Assembly: GCA_012838995.1 (NCBI GenBank)
Contig: DUOD01000048.1
Location: forward strand, 1-64,000
Length of the DNA stretch: 64,000 nucleotides
Source: Clostridiales bacterium
Lineage (GTDB): Bacteria; Bacillota; Clostridia; DUOD01
Reading direction: 5' to 3'
A program made the translations under genes and the position numbers. Of this stretch, positions 2,724 to 37,571 are shown in pieces (position 1 is the first letter of the stretch; each line of letters starts with the position of its first letter). The notes beneath the pieces were generated by a model that searched no databases, was not told the DNA's origin, and was given only the letters and a program-made list of their open reading frames with translations.

Positions 2724-3488
2724 TCATGGAGCTATAGGTTCCCATACCGTTCGGGCCAGTGCCATTTGGACACCGGTATAGGCATTATAGATACTATGGC
2801 TGTACTTTTTCGCTGTACCGCAATTATCCATCTGTTTGCCACAAGCGTATAGCTTGGTTCCGTAGCATACTTCCTTTTTATATTGGATTTCAAGGCATGT
2901 AGGAAGAAATTGGTTATATATTTCCGTAGGTATGGTTTCCATTAGCCATTCTACGTATTTACTGTTGTTTACATGGTCGTTGGTGTCTATATCGCTTAAC
3001 CTGACCGTGAACTCCTTCTTCTTAATATCTGGCCCTTCCGGAGGAGTCAGTCGGCTAAAGGGTGCATCCAAGGCTTTGATGGGGTAGGTACCGTAACACT
3101 CCTTTATATGTTCCGGAATGCTAACAGGTCTTTTTTTAGTTATATCAATGAATATCCATAAAGACGTAGCCCTACCCAGTATGTTACCCGCTTCATCCTT
3201 AATAAGAAACTCCCTTTCGGCATAAAACCTCTGGAAAAGAGAAGCCCATGTTTCAATTTGTACCCTATCCTCCCATTTTGGATACTTTTCCATTTTAAGC
3301 AGCCAGCGACTAATTACCCATCCCTTATTGTCCAGACCCAGTCGGTTTAAACCGTAGCCCGCCGCTTTTGTATGGGATAGGGCGGTTTCCCCTAAATAGT
3401 TTAACAAAGCTGCGGGTGTAACTTGCTGGCGATGGTTTATCTCGTGATAGTAAACTTCAAAACTTTTAGTATATCTTACGCAGTCCAT
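2724..3488 (-). CDS. Acyl-ACP thioesterase (hotdog family)
   Basis: YYHEINHRQQVTPAALLNYLGETALSH and DIDTNDHVNNSKYVEWLMETIP motif. Confidence 0.88.
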   Translation of the reverse strand: MDCVRYTKSFEVYYHEINHRQQVTPAALLNYLGETALSHTKAAGYGLNRLGLDNKGWVISRWLLKMEKYPKWEDRVQIETWASLFQRFYAEREFLIKDEAGNILGRATSLWIFIDITKKRPVSIPEHIKECYGTYPIKALDAPFSRLTPPEGPDIKKKEFTVRLSDIDTNDHVNNSKYVEWLMETIPTEIYNQFLPTCLEIQYKKEVCYGTKLYACGKQMDNCGTAKKYSHSIYNAYTGVQMALARTVWEPIAP

Positions 3489-3503
3489 ATTAGTCGTTCC
3501 TTT

Positions 3504-5174
3504 CTAGCTTTTTATATTTTCAAGGGCGATGAGGGCAGCACCTAAAGCGCCTATTATTTGCGGTTCTTCCGGCACAAAAATTTTTTCGCCTATTTTTTCT
3601 TCCAGCGCTTGCACCACCCCCGAATTTTTGGCTACACCGCCGGTCATCATATAATGTTTTTTTCTACCTATTCTTTCAAGGAGTGAGAGTGTTCTACCGG
3701 CTATTGATTTATTAAGTCCCTTGATAATATCAGCTTTGTCCTTGTTTTTAGCGATGAGGGATATAACTTCGGATTCCGCAAATACCGTGCACATGCTGGT
3801 AATGGTCAGCTCCTCCTTGGAATTAGCCGCTTCCTTTGACATATCCTCAAGGGATAGCCCCAGGGTTTTGGCCATAACTTCCAAGAATCTTCCCGTACCG
3901 GCTGAGCACTTGTCGTTCATTACAAAATCCACCACATCGCCCTTATTATTAATTCTTATTATTTTACTGTCTTGGCCGCCAATATCGATTATTGTCCGGA
4001 CGCTATTATTCAGGAAATGGGCACCTCTGCCATGACAAGTTATTTCGGTTACCCTTTTATCAGAAAAGGGTATGCCTATTCTGCCGTATCCGGTAGATAC
4101 TATATAGGATATATCACTTCGTGTAAGGTTTGCCCTTGCCAGGGCATTTTCAAAAGCTTCGGTTGCGCTGTCCACCGTCTTGGCACCGGTGGGTACTATG
4201 GAATAGGCCAGTATATTTCTTTGTCCGTCGAGTATTACTACATTAGTGGACAAAGAACCGCTGTCGATACCGCAAACGTAGGCGGAATTGGAGGTAAGTC
4301 TTGGTGGCTTTTTTGTTTTTAAGGCCTCAATAAAGGCTTCTATCCTGGTTCTGATTTGACCCTCACTTTGAAGGGAGTAGTCGGTTTCCAGTTTAAGTAC
4401 GGGTAGGGAAAGGTTTTCCTTTATCTTAGTATAATCAAAAGAATACATGTCGCAAAACTTGACTGTGTGGAATATCAGTCCTGAAATGCTTTTTTCAATA
4501 TCCTTTTTTAAAACCGCATACCTTTTTGTGGTATCAGCCATCCTCATGCAAGGGTATTGATTGAGCAGTGTCTTTGCGTATTGGTATATTATATCTTCAC
4601 CGTTAAAACCGTTTGTTTCTATAACATTATCGCCGTTGCAGGCAAGGTTAAAGACAATATTCGCCCCTGCGTTTTGTATAATTTCGGTGATGGAACTTTC
4701 GCATCTTGCGCCCATAATACCTATATTAACCCCGGCTTTAGCGTATTGCCGACTGTTTCTTTGTTCATGCAGCAGTTCAACAAACCGTTCCTTATTAAAG
4801 TTTATGCCTGAAAATTTTTCATACTCTTTTATAAAGGCATTCAACTCTTTGGCAAGCATTATGCAACCCTTTTCATCGGCTTTTCTTGGCAGGTCCAGCA
4901 TATACAAAAATTCAATTGTCGGTTGGAGTTTTAGTACGTCATACAGCCTTCTGACGCTGTCACAGCAGTTCATGAGCACAATTCGTTGTATTTTCCCGGC
5001 CAGGCATTCCTCCAGCACCGCCTTTACATATGAACACATATTGTTGTGGGTACAACAATCGGCATTATCAAAGTTTGCAGGTAGAGGGTCAATTTTGTGA
5101 ACCTTTTCGCCGAAACTCTCAATTATATGAATAGGAGTATATTTACATACATAACCGACCATAACATCACCCAT
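3504..5174 (-). CDS. Fusion: N-terminal 2-hydroxyacyl-CoA dehydratase-like domain + C-terminal acyl-CoA dehydratase activase (BcrAD/BadFG ATPase)
   Basis: Activase motifs GIDSGSLSTNVVILD, IDIGGQDSKII, NDKCSAGTGRFLEVMA, TSMCTVFAESEVISL, GGVAKN; ~290 aa N-terminal region with DCCTHNNMC...NCCDSVRRLYD. Confidence 0.85.
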   Translation of the reverse strand: MGDVMVGYVCKYTPIHIIESFGEKVHKIDPLPANFDNADCCTHNNMCSYVKAVLEECLAGKIQRIVLMNCCDSVRRLYDVLKLQPTIEFLYMLDLPRKADEKGCIMLAKELNAFIKEYEKFSGINFNKERFVELLHEQRNSRQYAKAGVNIGIMGARCESSITEIIQNAGANIVFNLACNGDNVIETNGFNGEDIIYQYAKTLLNQYPCMRMADTTKRYAVLKKDIEKSISGLIFHTVKFCDMYSFDYTKIKENLSLPVLKLETDYSLQSEGQIRTRIEAFIEALKTKKPPRLTSNSAYVCGIDSGSLSTNVVILDGQRNILAYSIVPTGAKTVDSATEAFENALARANLTRSDISYIVSTGYGRIGIPFSDKRVTEITCHGRGAHFLNNSVRTIIDIGGQDSKIIRINNKGDVVDFVMNDKCSAGTGRFLEVMAKTLGLSLEDMSKEAANSKEELTITSMCTVFAESEVISLIAKNKDKADIIKGLNKSIAGRTLSLLERIGRKKHYMMTGGVAKNSGVVQALEEKIGEKIFVPEEPQIIGALGAALIALENIKS

Positions 5175-5181
5175 ATTATGA

Positions 5182-6438
5182 TTATCCGTCTAAAATTTCT
5201 AAAAAAGCTTCTAATCTTGTTTTGATCTGACCGTCATGACTGTTCCTTTTGTCTATACCGTCCCCATCCAACGAAAGGAAGGGTATGCCCATATCCTTTA
5301 TAGCCTTTCTTAAAAGTATTACGCCCCCACTGGACTGTTTGCAACCCCAGTGACAAAAGTTAATCACACCGTCGGGTTTAAGTTTTTTTATAATCTTGGT
5401 AATACCTTCAATCCGCCTTTGGTACTCGCCGTTGTATTGGTTTTTGATCATTTTTTCGGCCAGGGCTTTATAAGGGTTGTTATAATCCATATTGTCCAGA
5501 AAATCAAAATTTAAATCACAGCCTAATATTTGGTATTTATCATTTAAGTTAAAATATTTCTTTAGGGTGGTTTGATAATAGGGCAGTAAATGGATCCAAA
5601 ATATTCTCTTTACCTGCTTTTGGGGGTAGGAGTCAATTTCGCGGTAGAGCATTTGGTAAAAACGGTATGTTTCCTGTCTGCCCATAAATGTATGGGAAGC
5701 AAACAGCATAAACATTTCCATTGTAAGGGTGGTAGGAAAGTATTTATATTCAAGGGAATCCATATACTTTTTTAGAAAAGTTCGGGTTTGGTTTTCCGTC
5801 ATCAATACTTTTTTTAGCCTTGCCTCATCAAGCTTTCGGCCCATTATATCCTCTATTATGCAAACCATTTCCTTCAGCTGGTCTACCACGTACTCTTCGG
5901 CATCGGGACTGTAGTAATTGGGGATATCAATGACATAACAAGGTATGTCGTACATATCCGTCAGGTGACGAAAGGTACCGATATTGGCATCGCATATCAT
6001 TGAAGTTGTTACTGCAAACTTGGGCTTGGGCAGCAGCCCGGTTATACCGGCGCCTAAAAAGGCTTTGTGGTAGCTGCATAGTGTTTCCGCTATTCCCGCC
6101 CGCTCTGCCCGGTCGATATATTCATCTTCGCATTCAAAACCACACAAAAAGGAGGCAAAGGCTTCGATGAACAGCGGATATATATCCATTGCATGAAGTA
6201 TCTCCGCCGGGGCGAACAGGTTGACCCATGCGGAGTTATTGGGGTTTTTTAAGGGTTGGTGCATAAACTTGATACATATCCTGTTTAAATATTTAAAGGA
6301 TTTGGGCATCTTTTTATCATGGCGGCGGGACAGCCAGTGATATGCAATTGCCAATCCCAAATTTATAAGTTTTTGTGCTGTTTTGGGGTTTTCTGCGCTT
6401 TTCTTTATAAAATTGCCGTAGGCTTTGACCATGTCCAT
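5182..6438 (-). CDS. 2-hydroxyacyl-CoA dehydratase family protein (HgdB / double-cubane-cluster-protein-like)
   Basis: NLFAPAEILHAMDIYPL, CSYHKAFLGAG, INFCHWGCKQSSGG, FLSLDGDGIDKRNSHDGQIKTRLEAFLE; 7 bp upstream of the activase gene. Confidence 0.83.
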   Translation of the reverse strand: MDMVKAYGNFIKKSAENPKTAQKLINLGLAIAYHWLSRRHDKKMPKSFKYLNRICIKFMHQPLKNPNNSAWVNLFAPAEILHAMDIYPLFIEAFASFLCGFECEDEYIDRAERAGIAETLCSYHKAFLGAGITGLLPKPKFAVTTSMICDANIGTFRHLTDMYDIPCYVIDIPNYYSPDAEEYVVDQLKEMVCIIEDIMGRKLDEARLKKVLMTENQTRTFLKKYMDSLEYKYFPTTLTMEMFMLFASHTFMGRQETYRFYQMLYREIDSYPQKQVKRIFWIHLLPYYQTTLKKYFNLNDKYQILGCDLNFDFLDNMDYNNPYKALAEKMIKNQYNGEYQRRIEGITKIIKKLKPDGVINFCHWGCKQSSGGVILLRKAIKDMGIPFLSLDGDGIDKRNSHDGQIKTRLEAFLEILDG

Positions 6439-6578
6439 AAAACCACTCCTTTCCTAATGCTATGATTTTATATATGTTTTGTCAAGAAAAAGGGCGATAA
6501 AAAACAGTCTGCGTAGGGAAACTGTAAAAGCTTTTAAAGCCATGGGCATTATATTGGAGGCAAAAGGAGGTTTGTAAT

Positions 6579-6981: not shown

Positions 6982-7025
6982 TAACACAAAGTTTAAGTAT
7001 ACACAACTATGCTTAATCTTTGATT

Positions 7026-7147
7026 TTTCAAAGTACGGAGGAACCAACTTTTTGGGGTGAATCTACTATTTTAAAAGTAGTAAGGATGCCTTCGTCCTGA
7101 ACCCGTCAGCTAACTCCGGAAGCAAATATTTTAAGGAAGGAGTTGTG
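7026..7147 (+). promoter_or_regulatory. c-di-AMP riboswitch (ydaO-yuaA type)
   Basis: Hallmarks ggaggaaccaa...tggggtgaatc...ctgaacccgtcagctaactccggaagc...aaggaaggag upstream of a cell-wall hydrolase gene. Confidence 0.88.
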
Positions 7148-7165
7148 TAAAAGGAATTGGATGAT

Positions 7166-8602
7166 GTGAAGAAAAAGGTAAGCGCTCTTACCCTGTCAAC
7201 TGTCCTAGCCCTTACCGTTTTACCCTTTTCCAGCTCTGCATTGGCAGCCGAAAAGGGCGTGGTAACGGGAAGTGTAGTTAATGTACGTTCCAGCGGAAGC
7301 TTAAACGCCAAGATTATTACCCAGGCTAAAAAGGGAACCGAGCTTGATGTTATTAAGAAATCAGGCGATTGGTATAACGTAAAACTACCTTCCAAAACGG
7401 TGGGGTGGATGTACGCCCAGTACATAGCCCTTAAAGAAAAAACAAGTGGCAACAATGTCACCGGCAATGGAACAGTTACCGGCAGCGCCGTAAGAGTGAG
7501 ATCGGGTCCCAGTACCAGCAAATCCATAATTGGGTTGCTGTACAGAAATGCTAAGGTAAAAGTAATAGGCAAGCAAGGAAGCTGGTATAAAGTACAACTA
7601 AGCAACGGTAAAGAAGGTTATATGCACTCCGATTACGTTAAGGTAAATACCAGCGTACCTGAAAGTACCAGTAGGTCCAAGGGCGAGTCAAGCAATAACG
7701 AGTCAAGTAAAACAGCTAAGGGTACCATAACAGCCAGTGCCCTTAGGGTAAGGTCTGGCCCGGGGACAAACTACAGTACTTTGACAACGTACAAAAGAAA
7801 CACTACGGTAAATATACTAGGAAAATGTCAAGGGTCCGGTGGGTTGTGGTATAAAATATCATACCCAGGAGGAAAGGAAGCATGGGTATCTGCCCAGTAT
7901 GTGAAAGCCTCCGGTACCATACCAAATGTGGATGGGCCCTCATCCAAGAAGACTGATGCAAAGGATGAAAGCAATTTACCCGTGGGTACGGTAACCGGTT
8001 CGGTGGTGAACATAAGGTCCGTTCCATCCACGTCCAATAACAAACCCATAGCTACCGTTAATAAAGGACAGCAACTAAAGATTGTCGGTGAGAAAAACGG
8101 TTGGTTCCAGGTAATACTACCAAACGGTACAAAAGGATGGATAACAGGTCAGTACTTCGTTAAGGGTAAAGTCTCCGACGGAGGAAGCACAAGCAGGGGT
8201 GTAAAGGTAAATACCACCGTATCCAAACTGATTTCCCTGGCAAAAAGCCTGTTGGGTACTCCATATGTATATGGTGGTAGCAGTCCCAGTGGCTTTGACT
8301 GTTCGGGCTTCACATATTACATATTCAAGCAATTTGGAGCAAAGATACCCAGAACAGCTACCGATCAGGGTTACAATCTACCGGGTGATAGACTAAGCAA
8401 AAGTCAGCTGAAACAAGGGGATCTGGTGTTCTTTAAAACCCGATCAGGTTCAAGTGCCTGTACCCATGTTGGAATATACCTAGGCAATAACCAGTTTATC
8501 CATTCGGCATCCCCTAGAACAGGAGGAGTAATAATTAGCTCGATGAATGAAAGCTACTATAAATCCAGGTTCAGCTGGGGTAAAAGGGTAGAATTTAAAT
8601 AA
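7166..8602 (+). CDS. Secreted NlpC/P60 endopeptidase with four bacterial SH3 domains
   Basis: Signal peptide; four G-[TV]-[VI]-T-[GA]-S-..-[VL]-R-S repeats; NlpC/P60 YGGSSPSGFDCSGFTYYIF ... GDLVFF ... THVGIYLGNNQFIHS. Confidence 0.94.
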   Translation: MKKKVSALTLSTVLALTVLPFSSSALAAEKGVVTGSVVNVRSSGSLNAKIITQAKKGTELDVIKKSGDWYNVKLPSKTVGWMYAQYIALKEKTSGNNVTGNGTVTGSAVRVRSGPSTSKSIIGLLYRNAKVKVIGKQGSWYKVQLSNGKEGYMHSDYVKVNTSVPESTSRSKGESSNNESSKTAKGTITASALRVRSGPGTNYSTLTTYKRNTTVNILGKCQGSGGLWYKISYPGGKEAWVSAQYVKASGTIPNVDGPSSKKTDAKDESNLPVGTVTGSVVNIRSVPSTSNNKPIATVNKGQQLKIVGEKNGWFQVILPNGTKGWITGQYFVKGKVSDGGSTSRGVKVNTTVSKLISLAKSLLGTPYVYGGSSPSGFDCSGFTYYIFKQFGAKIPRTATDQGYNLPGDRLSKSQLKQGDLVFFKTRSGSSACTHVGIYLGNNQFIHSASPRTGGVIISSMNESYYKSRFSWGKRVEFK

Positions 8603-34494: not shown

Positions 34495-34745
34495 TATGTT
34501 AAATAGAGTAAATGCTATGAAGGGGAAGAGTATACTATAAACAATTTATAGAGAGTTAACGGGTGGTGGAAGTTAGTAATTGTTTATTGTAGAAAATCAC
34601 CCCGGAGCAGCCCCGTGAACCGCATCAGTAGCGGGAGCCGGTTATACGTTAAAAAAACAAGGTTACTACTTTAGTAAAAAAAGGGTGGTACCACGGGAAC
34701 TAATATGCCTCGTCCCTTGTCTACGGATGGAGGTATTTTTTATTT
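34495..34745 (+). promoter_or_regulatory. T-box leader (isoleucyl; candidate specifier ATC at 34596-34598) with terminator
   Basis: T-box core aagggtggtaccacggg (34681-34697), distal GGTGG-AAG element, terminator cctcgtccc...ggatggaggtatttttta, upstream of ileS. Confidence 0.92.
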
Positions 34746-34784: not shown

Positions 34785-37571
34785 ATGGATTATAGCAAAA
34801 CATTAAACTTGCCAAAAACGGAAATGCCTATGAGGGGAAATTTACCGAAAAAAGAACCCGAAATGGTTAAGTTTTGGGAACAAAATAATATTTATGAAAA
34901 AACAGTGGAAAAAAACCAAGGCATGCCTAAGTTTATACTCCATGACGGTCCCCCCTATGCAAATGGCGATATACACCTGGGGCATACTTTAAACAAGGTG
35001 TTAAAGGATATCGTCGTAAAGTTTAAATCCATGTCCGGTTATGATGCACCCTATGTGCCCGGCTGGGATACCCACGGCCTGCCCATAGAATTACAGGCTA
35101 TAAAGCACCTGAAGGTGGATCGGGACAAGATTTCCCCCGTTGAGTTTAGAAAGTTGTGCAAGGATTTTGCCATTAAATATGTAAAAAATCAAAGGGATCA
35201 GTTTAAGAGACTGGGGGTAAGGGGCGATTGGGAAAATCCTTATCTTACTCTAAAACCCCAATTTGAAGCAAAACAAATAGAGATATTCGGGGAAATGGCT
35301 AAAAAGGGGTATATTTACAAGGGCCTGAAGCCGGTATACTGGTGTACCGACTGTGCTACCGCCTTGGCCGAGGCGGAAATAGAATACTCCGATCGTGAGT
35401 CCCATTCCATTTATGTAAAATTCAGGGTAAAGGACGATAAGGGTATGATAACGCCCCATGTTGGTGATCTGTCAAAGGTATACTTTGTTATCTGGACCAC
35501 CACCCCATGGACGTTACCGGCTAATTTGGCAATATGCCTCGCCCCTGACTTTAAATACTCTTTGTTTAAAGTAGGAGAAGAATACCTAATAGCGGCCGAG
35601 GAACTTGCTGAGAATGTGGCCGAGGCTGCAGGCAGCCGGGATTATGCCGTGATTGCTACCTTCGACGGTGTACAGATGGAGGGAATGACCGCCCAGCATC
35701 CCTTTATGAACAGGGAGTCCCTGATAATACTGGGTGATCATGTAACCCTGGATCAGGGTACCGGGTGTGTCCATACCGCCCCCGGTCATGGTCAAGAAGA
35801 CTTTGGAATCGGCAAGAAGTATAATCTAGACGTGTTAAACCCTGTGGACGATAGGGGGTATATGACCGAAAAGGCGGGCAAATTTGAAGGCCTGTATTAT
35901 GAAGACTCCAATGATGCCATTATTAAGGATTTACAGGCGTCCGGGGCATTGCTGGGGCTTAGCAGGCTGATCCATTCGTATCCCCATTGCTGGAGATGCA
36001 AAAGTCCGGTAATATTCCGGGCAACGGAACAGTGGTTCGCATCGATAGAAGGGTTCAGGGACCAAGCGTTGGAGGCCATAAAACAGGTTAAATGGATACC
36101 CGGTTGGGGACAGGAAAGGATCACCAGCATGATTCTAGACCGTCAGGATTGGTGCATATCCCGCCAGAGGATCTGGGGGGTGCCCATTCCCATATTTTAT
36201 TGCGATGAATGTGGTAAAGAGTTAATAAATGATGATACCATTGCCGCAGTGGCTAAACTCTTCGGTGAAAAGGGTTCGGATGCGTGGTATCAAATGGAAG
36301 CCGAGGAAATCCTGCCTGATGATGTAGAATGTCCGTGTGGCGGTAGAAAATTCCGAAAAGAAACGGATATAATGGATGTTTGGTTTGATTCGGGGTCCAG
36401 TCATGCTGCCGTACTGGAAACAACACCCGGTCAGGTTTGGCCGGCAGATCTCTACTTAGAGGGCAGTGACCAGCACAGGGGATGGTTCCAGTCTTCTCTC
36501 CTGACTTCGGTGGCCACAAGGGGCAAAGCCCCCTATAAGGCGGTATTGACCCATGGTTTTGTGGTTGACGGAGAAGGAAGGAAAATGAGTAAATCCCTGG
36601 GAAACGGTATAGATCCCATGGAAGTGGTTGAACAATACGGTGCGGATATCTTAAGGTTATGGGTAGTATCGGCGGATTACAGGACCGACGTTAGGATATC
36701 CAAGGATATACTGAAACAGCTATCGGAAATTTACAGGAAGATAAGAAATACTGCCAGGTTCCTGTTGGGCAATCTGTACGATTTCGACCCCACCCAGCAC
36801 AGGGTTGATTATGCCGATATGGAGGAGCTTGACAGATGGGCGCTGATGAGATTACACAAGCTGATAGACAGAGTGCTCAAGGCATATCAAGACTATGAAT
36901 ATCATATTATATACCATTCCATCCACAATTTTTGTGTGGTGGATATGAGCAATTTCTACCTGGATATTATAAAAGACAGGCTGTATACATTTAAAGCTTA
37001 TTCCAAGCAAAGGAGATCGGCCCAGACTGTTATGTACGACATAATAAACAGCCTGGTGCGGTTGATAACGCCCATTCTGTCCTTTACTGCCGAGGAGATA
37101 TGGAGGCATATGCCCAAGGGGGAAGACAGGCCCATAAGTCCTCAATTGGCGGATATGCCAAAGGTTGATGCTCGGTATATAGATAAATCCTTGGAGGAAA
37201 AGTGGTCCAAGATAATCGACGTGAGGATGGATGTATCCAAAGCCTTGGAAAATGCCCGGGTACAAAAGGTGATAGGCAATTCCTTAGATGCTTTTATTAA
37301 GATATACACCGACGGCGAATGGTATTCCTTCTTGGAAGGAATTAAGGATGCCCTACCCACCATATTTATTGCATCAAAAGTAGAGGTTATAAAGGGCAAG
37401 TGCCCCGAGGAGGAACAGGGTTTGGTGGGCGAGGAAGTACCTGATATTACAATAGTCGTAGGCAAGGCGCCGGGGGCTAAATGTGAAAGGTGCTGGGTAT
37501 ATAGTGAAACGGTGGGCCGACATCCCCAGCATAAGAATATCTGTGCCAAATGTGTAGCTAATTTAACATAA
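34785..37571 (+). CDS. ileS: Isoleucyl-tRNA synthetase
   Basis: [40 protein letters not shown]-terminal zinc finger [12 protein letters not shown]...CAKC. Confidence 0.99.

Follow-up and report, generated by a model that had tools for sequence, protein, structure and literature searches.

What kind of enzyme results when a subunit of the 2-hydroxyacyl-coenzyme A (CoA) dehydratase type is joined, in a single polypeptide, to an activase? The question is raised by a locus within a 64,000-nucleotide stretch of a Clostridiales genome (GenBank assembly GCA_012838995.1, contig DUOD01000048.1; the whole stretch is referred to here as the window). Two adjacent open reading frames (ORFs) on the minus strand encode an alpha-type subunit with the HGD-D domain (ORF1, 5182..6438, 418 amino acids) and a beta-type HGD-D domain fused to an activase (ORF2, 3504..5174, 556 amino acids as listed). 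At slightly better than even odds, ORF1 is the alpha subunit and ORF2 the beta subunit of a distinct and so far uncharacterised family within the benzoyl-CoA reductase (BCR)/2-hydroxyacyl-CoA dehydratase (HAD) superfamily. Together they look like an oxygen-sensitive, ATP-using enzyme that acts on an acid probably bound as a thioester.

A conserved pair of genes

Do the two genes belong together? Named genomes were scanned with an alignment of the ORF2 N-terminal domain, which yielded 337 relatives, and 80 of these were kept. A fused ORF2-type protein was read in 77 of the 80 loci, and 77 of the 80 have an ORF1 relative directly upstream, the order being that of the window; the exceptions are short contigs, frame breaks and missed ORF calls (the Thermoanaerobacter wiegelii locus, for example, has a frame break and reads as two ORFs). 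Because the same order recurs in so many independent loci, the pairing is far beyond chance. The alpha and beta genes overlap by exactly 4 bp in 34 of the 74 pairs that could be measured. When the neighbours of the 80 loci were searched, the pair alone recurred, and one larger cluster (16 loci) consisted of generic ATP-binding cassette ATPases.

The module is found mostly in Clostridia and gut Lachnospiraceae, with hosts that include Blautia, Roseburia, Coprococcus catus, Clostridium tyrobutyricum and Thermoanaerobacter. Its distribution is patchy: about 11 of 393 genomes in a class-level sample carry it, as do 32 of 399 (~8%) in a phylum-level sample. The fusion is intact in 26 of those 32, and the remaining cases are mostly contig ends or frame breaks, with one unfused locus (G575, see below). 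No relatives of ORF1 were found in phage records.

In the window the pair is followed by a third minus-strand gene, for an acyl-acyl carrier protein (ACP) thioesterase (ORF3, 2724..3488; PF01643/PF20791, with E values of 8e-29 for Acyl-ACP_TE and 1e-22 for its C-terminal domain). The original prediction described a three-gene operon with gaps of 7 bp (ORF1-ORF2) and 15 bp (ORF2-ORF3), which these coordinates confirm, and proposed a link to lipid metabolism through the thioesterase. That link is not supported. The thioesterase stands beside the pair in none of the 80 relatives, the very finding that the prediction had named as counting against it, and what is conserved is a pair and not a trio of genes; the thioesterase is accordingly rejected as a component of the system. 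ORF3 is the only acyl-ACP thioesterase found in a search of this genome, and therefore it may be a housekeeping gene that shares the operon.

Predicted cofactor sites

ORF1 matches HGD-D (PF06050, E 1e-76; 259 bits against a cut-off of 28.4), and its best profile matches are, in order, HadB (3o3m_A, E 7e-26), BzdO (2e-23), MbdO (5e-21) and the double-cubane cluster protein DCCP (2e-19). The AlphaFold model of ORF1 has a high predicted confidence (pLDDT 95) and matches HadB, BzdO and MbdO, the best match in the PDB being HadB (TM-score 0.78-0.82). Three cysteines, invariant in the 73 full-length rows of the alignment, fall on BzdO cysteines: Cys121 (6076..6078, minus strand; motif CSYHK), the first [4Fe-4S] ligand, on Cys95, Cys149 (5992..5994, minus strand; motif CDxN) on Cys128, and Cys366 (5341..5343, minus strand; motif HWGCK) on Cys380. 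Glu92, which aligns with BzdO Glu65, is likewise present in 100% of these rows, as are His124, three residues past Cys121, and Asn152; His283 is present in 98%. Tyr123 aligns with BzdO Tyr97, a residue that binds the thioester oxygen.

The original prediction described the first ~290 residues of ORF2 as Cys-rich. The cysteines are indeed there, but the description understates them: seven are invariant, and six of the seven occupy double-cubane positions. This shortened beta-type domain (residues 1-290, 4305..5174, minus strand) matches HGD-D at E 4e-39 (136 bits against the same cut-off) and aligns with DCCP, HadC and BzdN. The [8Fe-9S] cluster of BzdN is held by Cys36, Cys73, Cys100, Cys263, Cys293 and Cys327 (PMC11971306), and Cys10, Cys47, Cys71, Cys179, Cys209 and Cys241 of ORF2 fall on these positions in the alignment, with nearly equal spacings (37 and 37, 27 and 24, 30 and 30, 34 and 32 in BzdN and ORF2 in turn). 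All six, together with Cys70, are found in 100% of 78 rows (77 relatives and the window). As for controls, HadC-type proteins and two HAD-like pairs are without the distal positions of Cys10 and Cys179, and DCCPs keep all six; the loci L209 and L210 had been fetched as possible benzoyl-CoA reductases, are HAD-like by their cysteines and model scores, and were kept as controls. The AlphaFold model of the domain is a good one and matches BzdN, HadC and DCCP. Given the six conserved cysteines, a double cubane is therefore predicted in ORF2 and a single open [4Fe-4S] cluster, the likely catalytic [4Fe-4S]-OH2 site, in ORF1; the cysteines can be read in the alignment, and the clusters themselves are deduced from them. 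The pair is thus predicted to have its cofactors arranged as in class I benzoyl-CoA reductase, with an aqua-[4Fe-4S] cluster in alpha and an [8Fe-9S] cluster in beta.

The second half of ORF2 (residues 299-552, 3519..4280, minus strand) is a complete activase of the 2-hydroxyacyl-CoA dehydratase type, an ASKHA ATPase. It matches BcrAD_BadFG (PF01869, E 6e-63) and passes the NCBIfam model TIGR00241 (265 bits against a cut-off of 125.4). Cys423 and Cys462 are invariant in the family and are the predicted ligands of a bridging [4Fe-4S] cluster, both of which the original prediction had recognised. The closest PDB entries are MbdQ (the best), HadI and HgdC, and this part of the AlphaFold model matches MbdQ and HadI. 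The two halves are joined by a linker (residues 287-298, 4281..4316, minus strand) of ~12 residues, a length that is mostly 12-26 in relatives, and the model has pLDDT <50 at residues 289-295. The domain searches, the models with their BCR, HAD and DCCP folds, and the six-cysteine site found by alignment thus support the earlier reading of the locus as an HGD-D protein partnered with an HGD-D/activase fusion, and of the whole as an ATP-driven low-potential system.

Standing of the family

Does the pair belong to a family that already has a name? Its scores fall far below the cut-offs of the curated models. Against the class I BCR models (TIGR03190/03191/02260/02263), ORF1 reaches at best 63 bits of a required 448, and the ORF2 N-terminal domain 39 of 454. 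Against the HadB and HadC models (NF052455 and NF052456) the values are 84 of 750 and 40 of 700; HadB- and HadC-type proteins of related genomes also fall below these strict cut-offs, yet they score 377-537 bits. The ORF2 N-terminal domain scores 97.6 bits with the DCCP model NF040772, which requires 350, and genuine DCCPs of related genomes pass that model with 524-529 bits.

Two trees built by maximum likelihood recover the ORF1 clade as one group (support 96/89 and 99/97) apart from HadB, its sister in the first tree, and place the ORF2 N-terminal clade apart from HadC and DCCP. In the first tree G025 and G220 are the outer members of the alpha clade and of the beta clade alike, as partner proteins should be. 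The beta protein of G575 lies outside the beta clade in the second tree. The trees were built without genuine BCR sequences (BcrBC/BzdNO), and the long branches of G220, G025, G575 and Azoarcus leave their exact placement unsure. The original prediction would have been weakened had the fusion been a common and already characterised architecture; common it is, but no characterisation of a fused dehydratase-activase was found in the searchable literature.

The likeness to class I BCR (BzdNO/PQ, MbdONPQ; PDB 8s02, 9gai) extends from the three-cysteine alpha site with its catalytic Glu and the six cysteines of the beta (N) subunit to the HgdC-type activase. There are also differences: ORF2 carries a single activase, fused to the C-terminus of a beta domain of ~290 residues with a reduced helical region, whereas a BCR operon has two activase subunits, and no aromatic pathway genes accompany ORF1-ORF2.

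Sister loci

Three loci of the sister branches bear on the likely substrate. In G220, a beta-like half with all six cysteines and an alpha-like half make up one 725-amino-acid protein, and the activase is encoded by a gene of its own that follows. Because beta and alpha are fused there, the arrangement supports an ORF1-ORF2 heterodimer, by analogy. The genes around it, named mostly by inspection, form a large cluster that includes ketoacyl synthases and ketoreductases, carrier proteins and a phosphopantetheinyl transferase, a dehydratase, and numerous B12/radical S-adenosylmethionine (SAM) proteins, and this gene content suggests low-potential, BCR-type chemistry within a biosynthetic cluster. 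In G025 (L198:5778-10726), separate activase, beta and alpha genes immediately precede one for an AMP-dependent ligase that includes a carrier-protein domain. In G575 (L211:9431-18014), unfused beta, alpha and activase genes are followed by genes for a solute symporter, a PaaK-like ligase and indolepyruvate-oxidoreductase-like (IorAB) proteins, all named by inspection, and the locus possibly encodes an aryl-CoA pathway. The three contexts differ, yet each offers acyl thioesters, which suggests, by analogy, the substrate class of the family.

The G220 genes lie on contig 10 (L189:6472-11349, with L196 and L197), where the cluster of polyketide synthase/fatty-acid-like genes, B12-type radical-SAM proteins, HGD-D fusion and activase also holds a second, divergent alpha protein (413 amino acids) with a short beta-like partner (252 amino acids).

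A fusion is also found on the Azoarcus sp. KH32C plasmid pAZKH (L185:4060-8251), a locus with two activases: an activase, an activase-HGD-D fusion (685 amino acids) that has all six cysteines of the double cubane, and a second HGD-D protein. Since the order of domains in this fusion is opposite to that in ORF2, activase fusion seems to have arisen more than once.

The genome of the window itself (G000) holds two further sets of an activase and two HGD-D-related proteins of 330-372 amino acids on other contigs (C51, L124:1779-4829; C4, L125:77-2184; C57, L126:5001-5963), one set apparently split over two contigs. These are possibly separate-gene counterparts of PlsA-type proteins.

Alternative explanations

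Could the pair instead be a lyase like the 2-hydroxyacyl-CoA dehydratases? Such an enzyme would dehydrate a 2-hydroxyacyl thioester by recycling one activated electron, so that nothing is reduced overall, and this is the main rival explanation. ORF1 has the fold and cluster ligands of HadB, the closest protein by both profile and fold, its clade is sister to HadB, and the single activase is of the same type as that of HadBC-HadI ((R)-2-hydroxyisocaproyl-CoA dehydratase; PDB 3o3m, 4eht), here in fused form. HAD beta subunits, however, keep the proximal cluster ligands only, and the retention in ORF2 of the distal ligands lost in HadC argues against a lyase, as do the wide shortfall on the HadB and HadC models and the fact that inspection turned up no evident CoA-transferase or hydroxyacid dehydrogenase nearby. 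Indeed, inspection revealed no obvious fermentation genes of any kind beside ORF1-ORF2, as the original prediction had remarked, and its preference for a reductase over a classical fermentative dehydratase is supported by the full set of six [8Fe-9S] cysteines. We consider the lyase unlikely. A reductase of small molecules working at the double cubane, as in DCCP and its activase DCCP-R (PDB 6eno, 7yyl), with ORF1 as an accessory, would fit the six cysteines, the best score of the ORF2 N-terminal domain, which is with the double-cubane model, and the E. coli genes yjiM-yjiL (DCCP and its activase), in which HGD-D directly precedes the activase, collinear with ORF2. It is difficult to reconcile with the low value of that score, with the separate clade of the domain, and with the partner. 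DCCP forms homodimers of full-length subunits, each with one double cubane, and has a separate activase, whereas the shortened subunit in ORF2 is fused to its activase, and in 77 of the 80 loci the ORF2-type protein has beside it a second, different HGD-D subunit, without the distal cysteines and with invariant active-site residues of its own. This alternative seems to us improbable.

Equally improbable is a reductase of membrane-lipid or acyl-ACP esters, comparable to the plasmalogen synthase PlsA-PlsR or to Ger, for which the thioesterase of the local operon would supply the lipid link. PlsA, PlsR and Ger are members of the BCR/HAD superfamily found widely among Clostridia (PMC12838417, PMC13274423), and they too combine activase and reductase domains in a single chain. 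They are described, however, with activation domains and two reduction domains in ~1400 residues or split, in a different order, whereas ORF2 runs from reduction to activation and has ORF1 as a separate protein. An identity with PlsA or Ger was rejected on this architecture; moreover, the genome already has its two separate activase sets elsewhere, and the thioesterase linkage is not seen in relatives. Finally, the pair might act as an ATP-driven activator that feeds low-potential electrons to some other enzyme and catalyses nothing itself. Corrinoid proteins, for example, are reported to be reduced by ATP-dependent activating enzymes (PMC6739815), and an activator would suit the lack of conserved pathway neighbours. 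ORF1 keeps a complete and invariant substrate-type active site, however, and we regard this role as very improbable indeed.

A reductase of acyl thioesters, the reading that we prefer, has difficulties of its own. The acid-base residue of BCR, His131, which is adjacent to the cluster-bound water, is replaced by the invariant Asn152 in ORF1, and some of the helical region, at the N-terminus and in the middle, is missing from the beta domain. The argument for thioesters comes from homology and from three distant relatives of the sister branches, among them G025, in which only four of the six double-cubane cysteines of the beta protein survive. In the core family, no neighbour that would name a substrate recurs within up to 8 kb on each side of the 80 loci. 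All of these points weigh against the reading.

A proposed mechanism

How might the fused motor operate? By analogy with solved relatives, from which the cofactors, dimer and electron path are deduced, ORF2 would dimerise through its activase domains around a shared [4Fe-4S] cluster held by two cysteines per chain. Ferredoxin or flavodoxin would deliver electrons to this cluster, and ATP hydrolysis would then force them onto the double cubane ([8Fe-9S]) of the same chain at very low potential. The double cubane would store at least two electrons before passing them to the [4Fe-4S]-OH2 site of ORF1, where a CoA- or ACP-bound acyl thioester would be reduced in a radical, Birch-like or reductive-elimination step, with Glu92, His124 and Asn152 as candidate acid-base residues. 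By virtue of the fusion, each double-cubane subunit would carry its own ATP motor, and an alpha2-beta2 assembly is predicted. The exact substrate and product are a matter of guesswork.

Local features of the window

A promoter-like site found by consensus scan (TTGACA-17-TAGCAT, 6457..6485, minus strand) lies just 5' of ORF1 and is followed by a ribosome site, AGGAAAGGAG. Because the promoter-like site directly precedes ORF1, the three genes here probably form a single transcript, as far as such patterns can tell. The true start of ORF2 is most likely Met5 at 5162, giving 552 amino acids, because relatives begin there (this Met is kept in 62 of 78 alignment rows) and a GGTGAT-like ribosome site precedes it.

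Elsewhere in the window, a c-di-AMP riboswitch (7000-7140, plus strand; Rfam RF00379, 94.7 bits) lies upstream of a gene for an SH3/NlpC-P60-like cell-wall protein (7157-8602), and a T-box leader (34508-34720, plus strand; RF00230, 138 bits) lies upstream of 34785-37571, which encodes a 928-amino-acid protein resembling isoleucyl-tRNA synthetase.

Implications

According to the 2025 BzdNO structure paper (PMC11971306), DCCP, a protein of unknown role, was the sole reported case of an [8Fe-9S] double cubane until one was found in class I benzoyl-CoA reductase. The module described here predicts a third, widespread double-cubane group in culturable gut and thermophilic Firmicutes, and enlarges the evolutionary picture of the BCR/HAD superfamily by unfused, fused and rearranged versions. 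With only two genes in the module, direct expression and testing are feasible. A more far-reaching reading, to which we give a low probability, is that the group is a separate double-cubane branch, common in these bacteria, whose built-in ATP motor drives Birch-like or reductive-elimination reactions of acyl thioesters, some relatives acting on biosynthetic intermediates bound to carrier proteins. If this is true, very-low-potential iron-sulfur chemistry would serve biosynthesis and not aromatic degradation.

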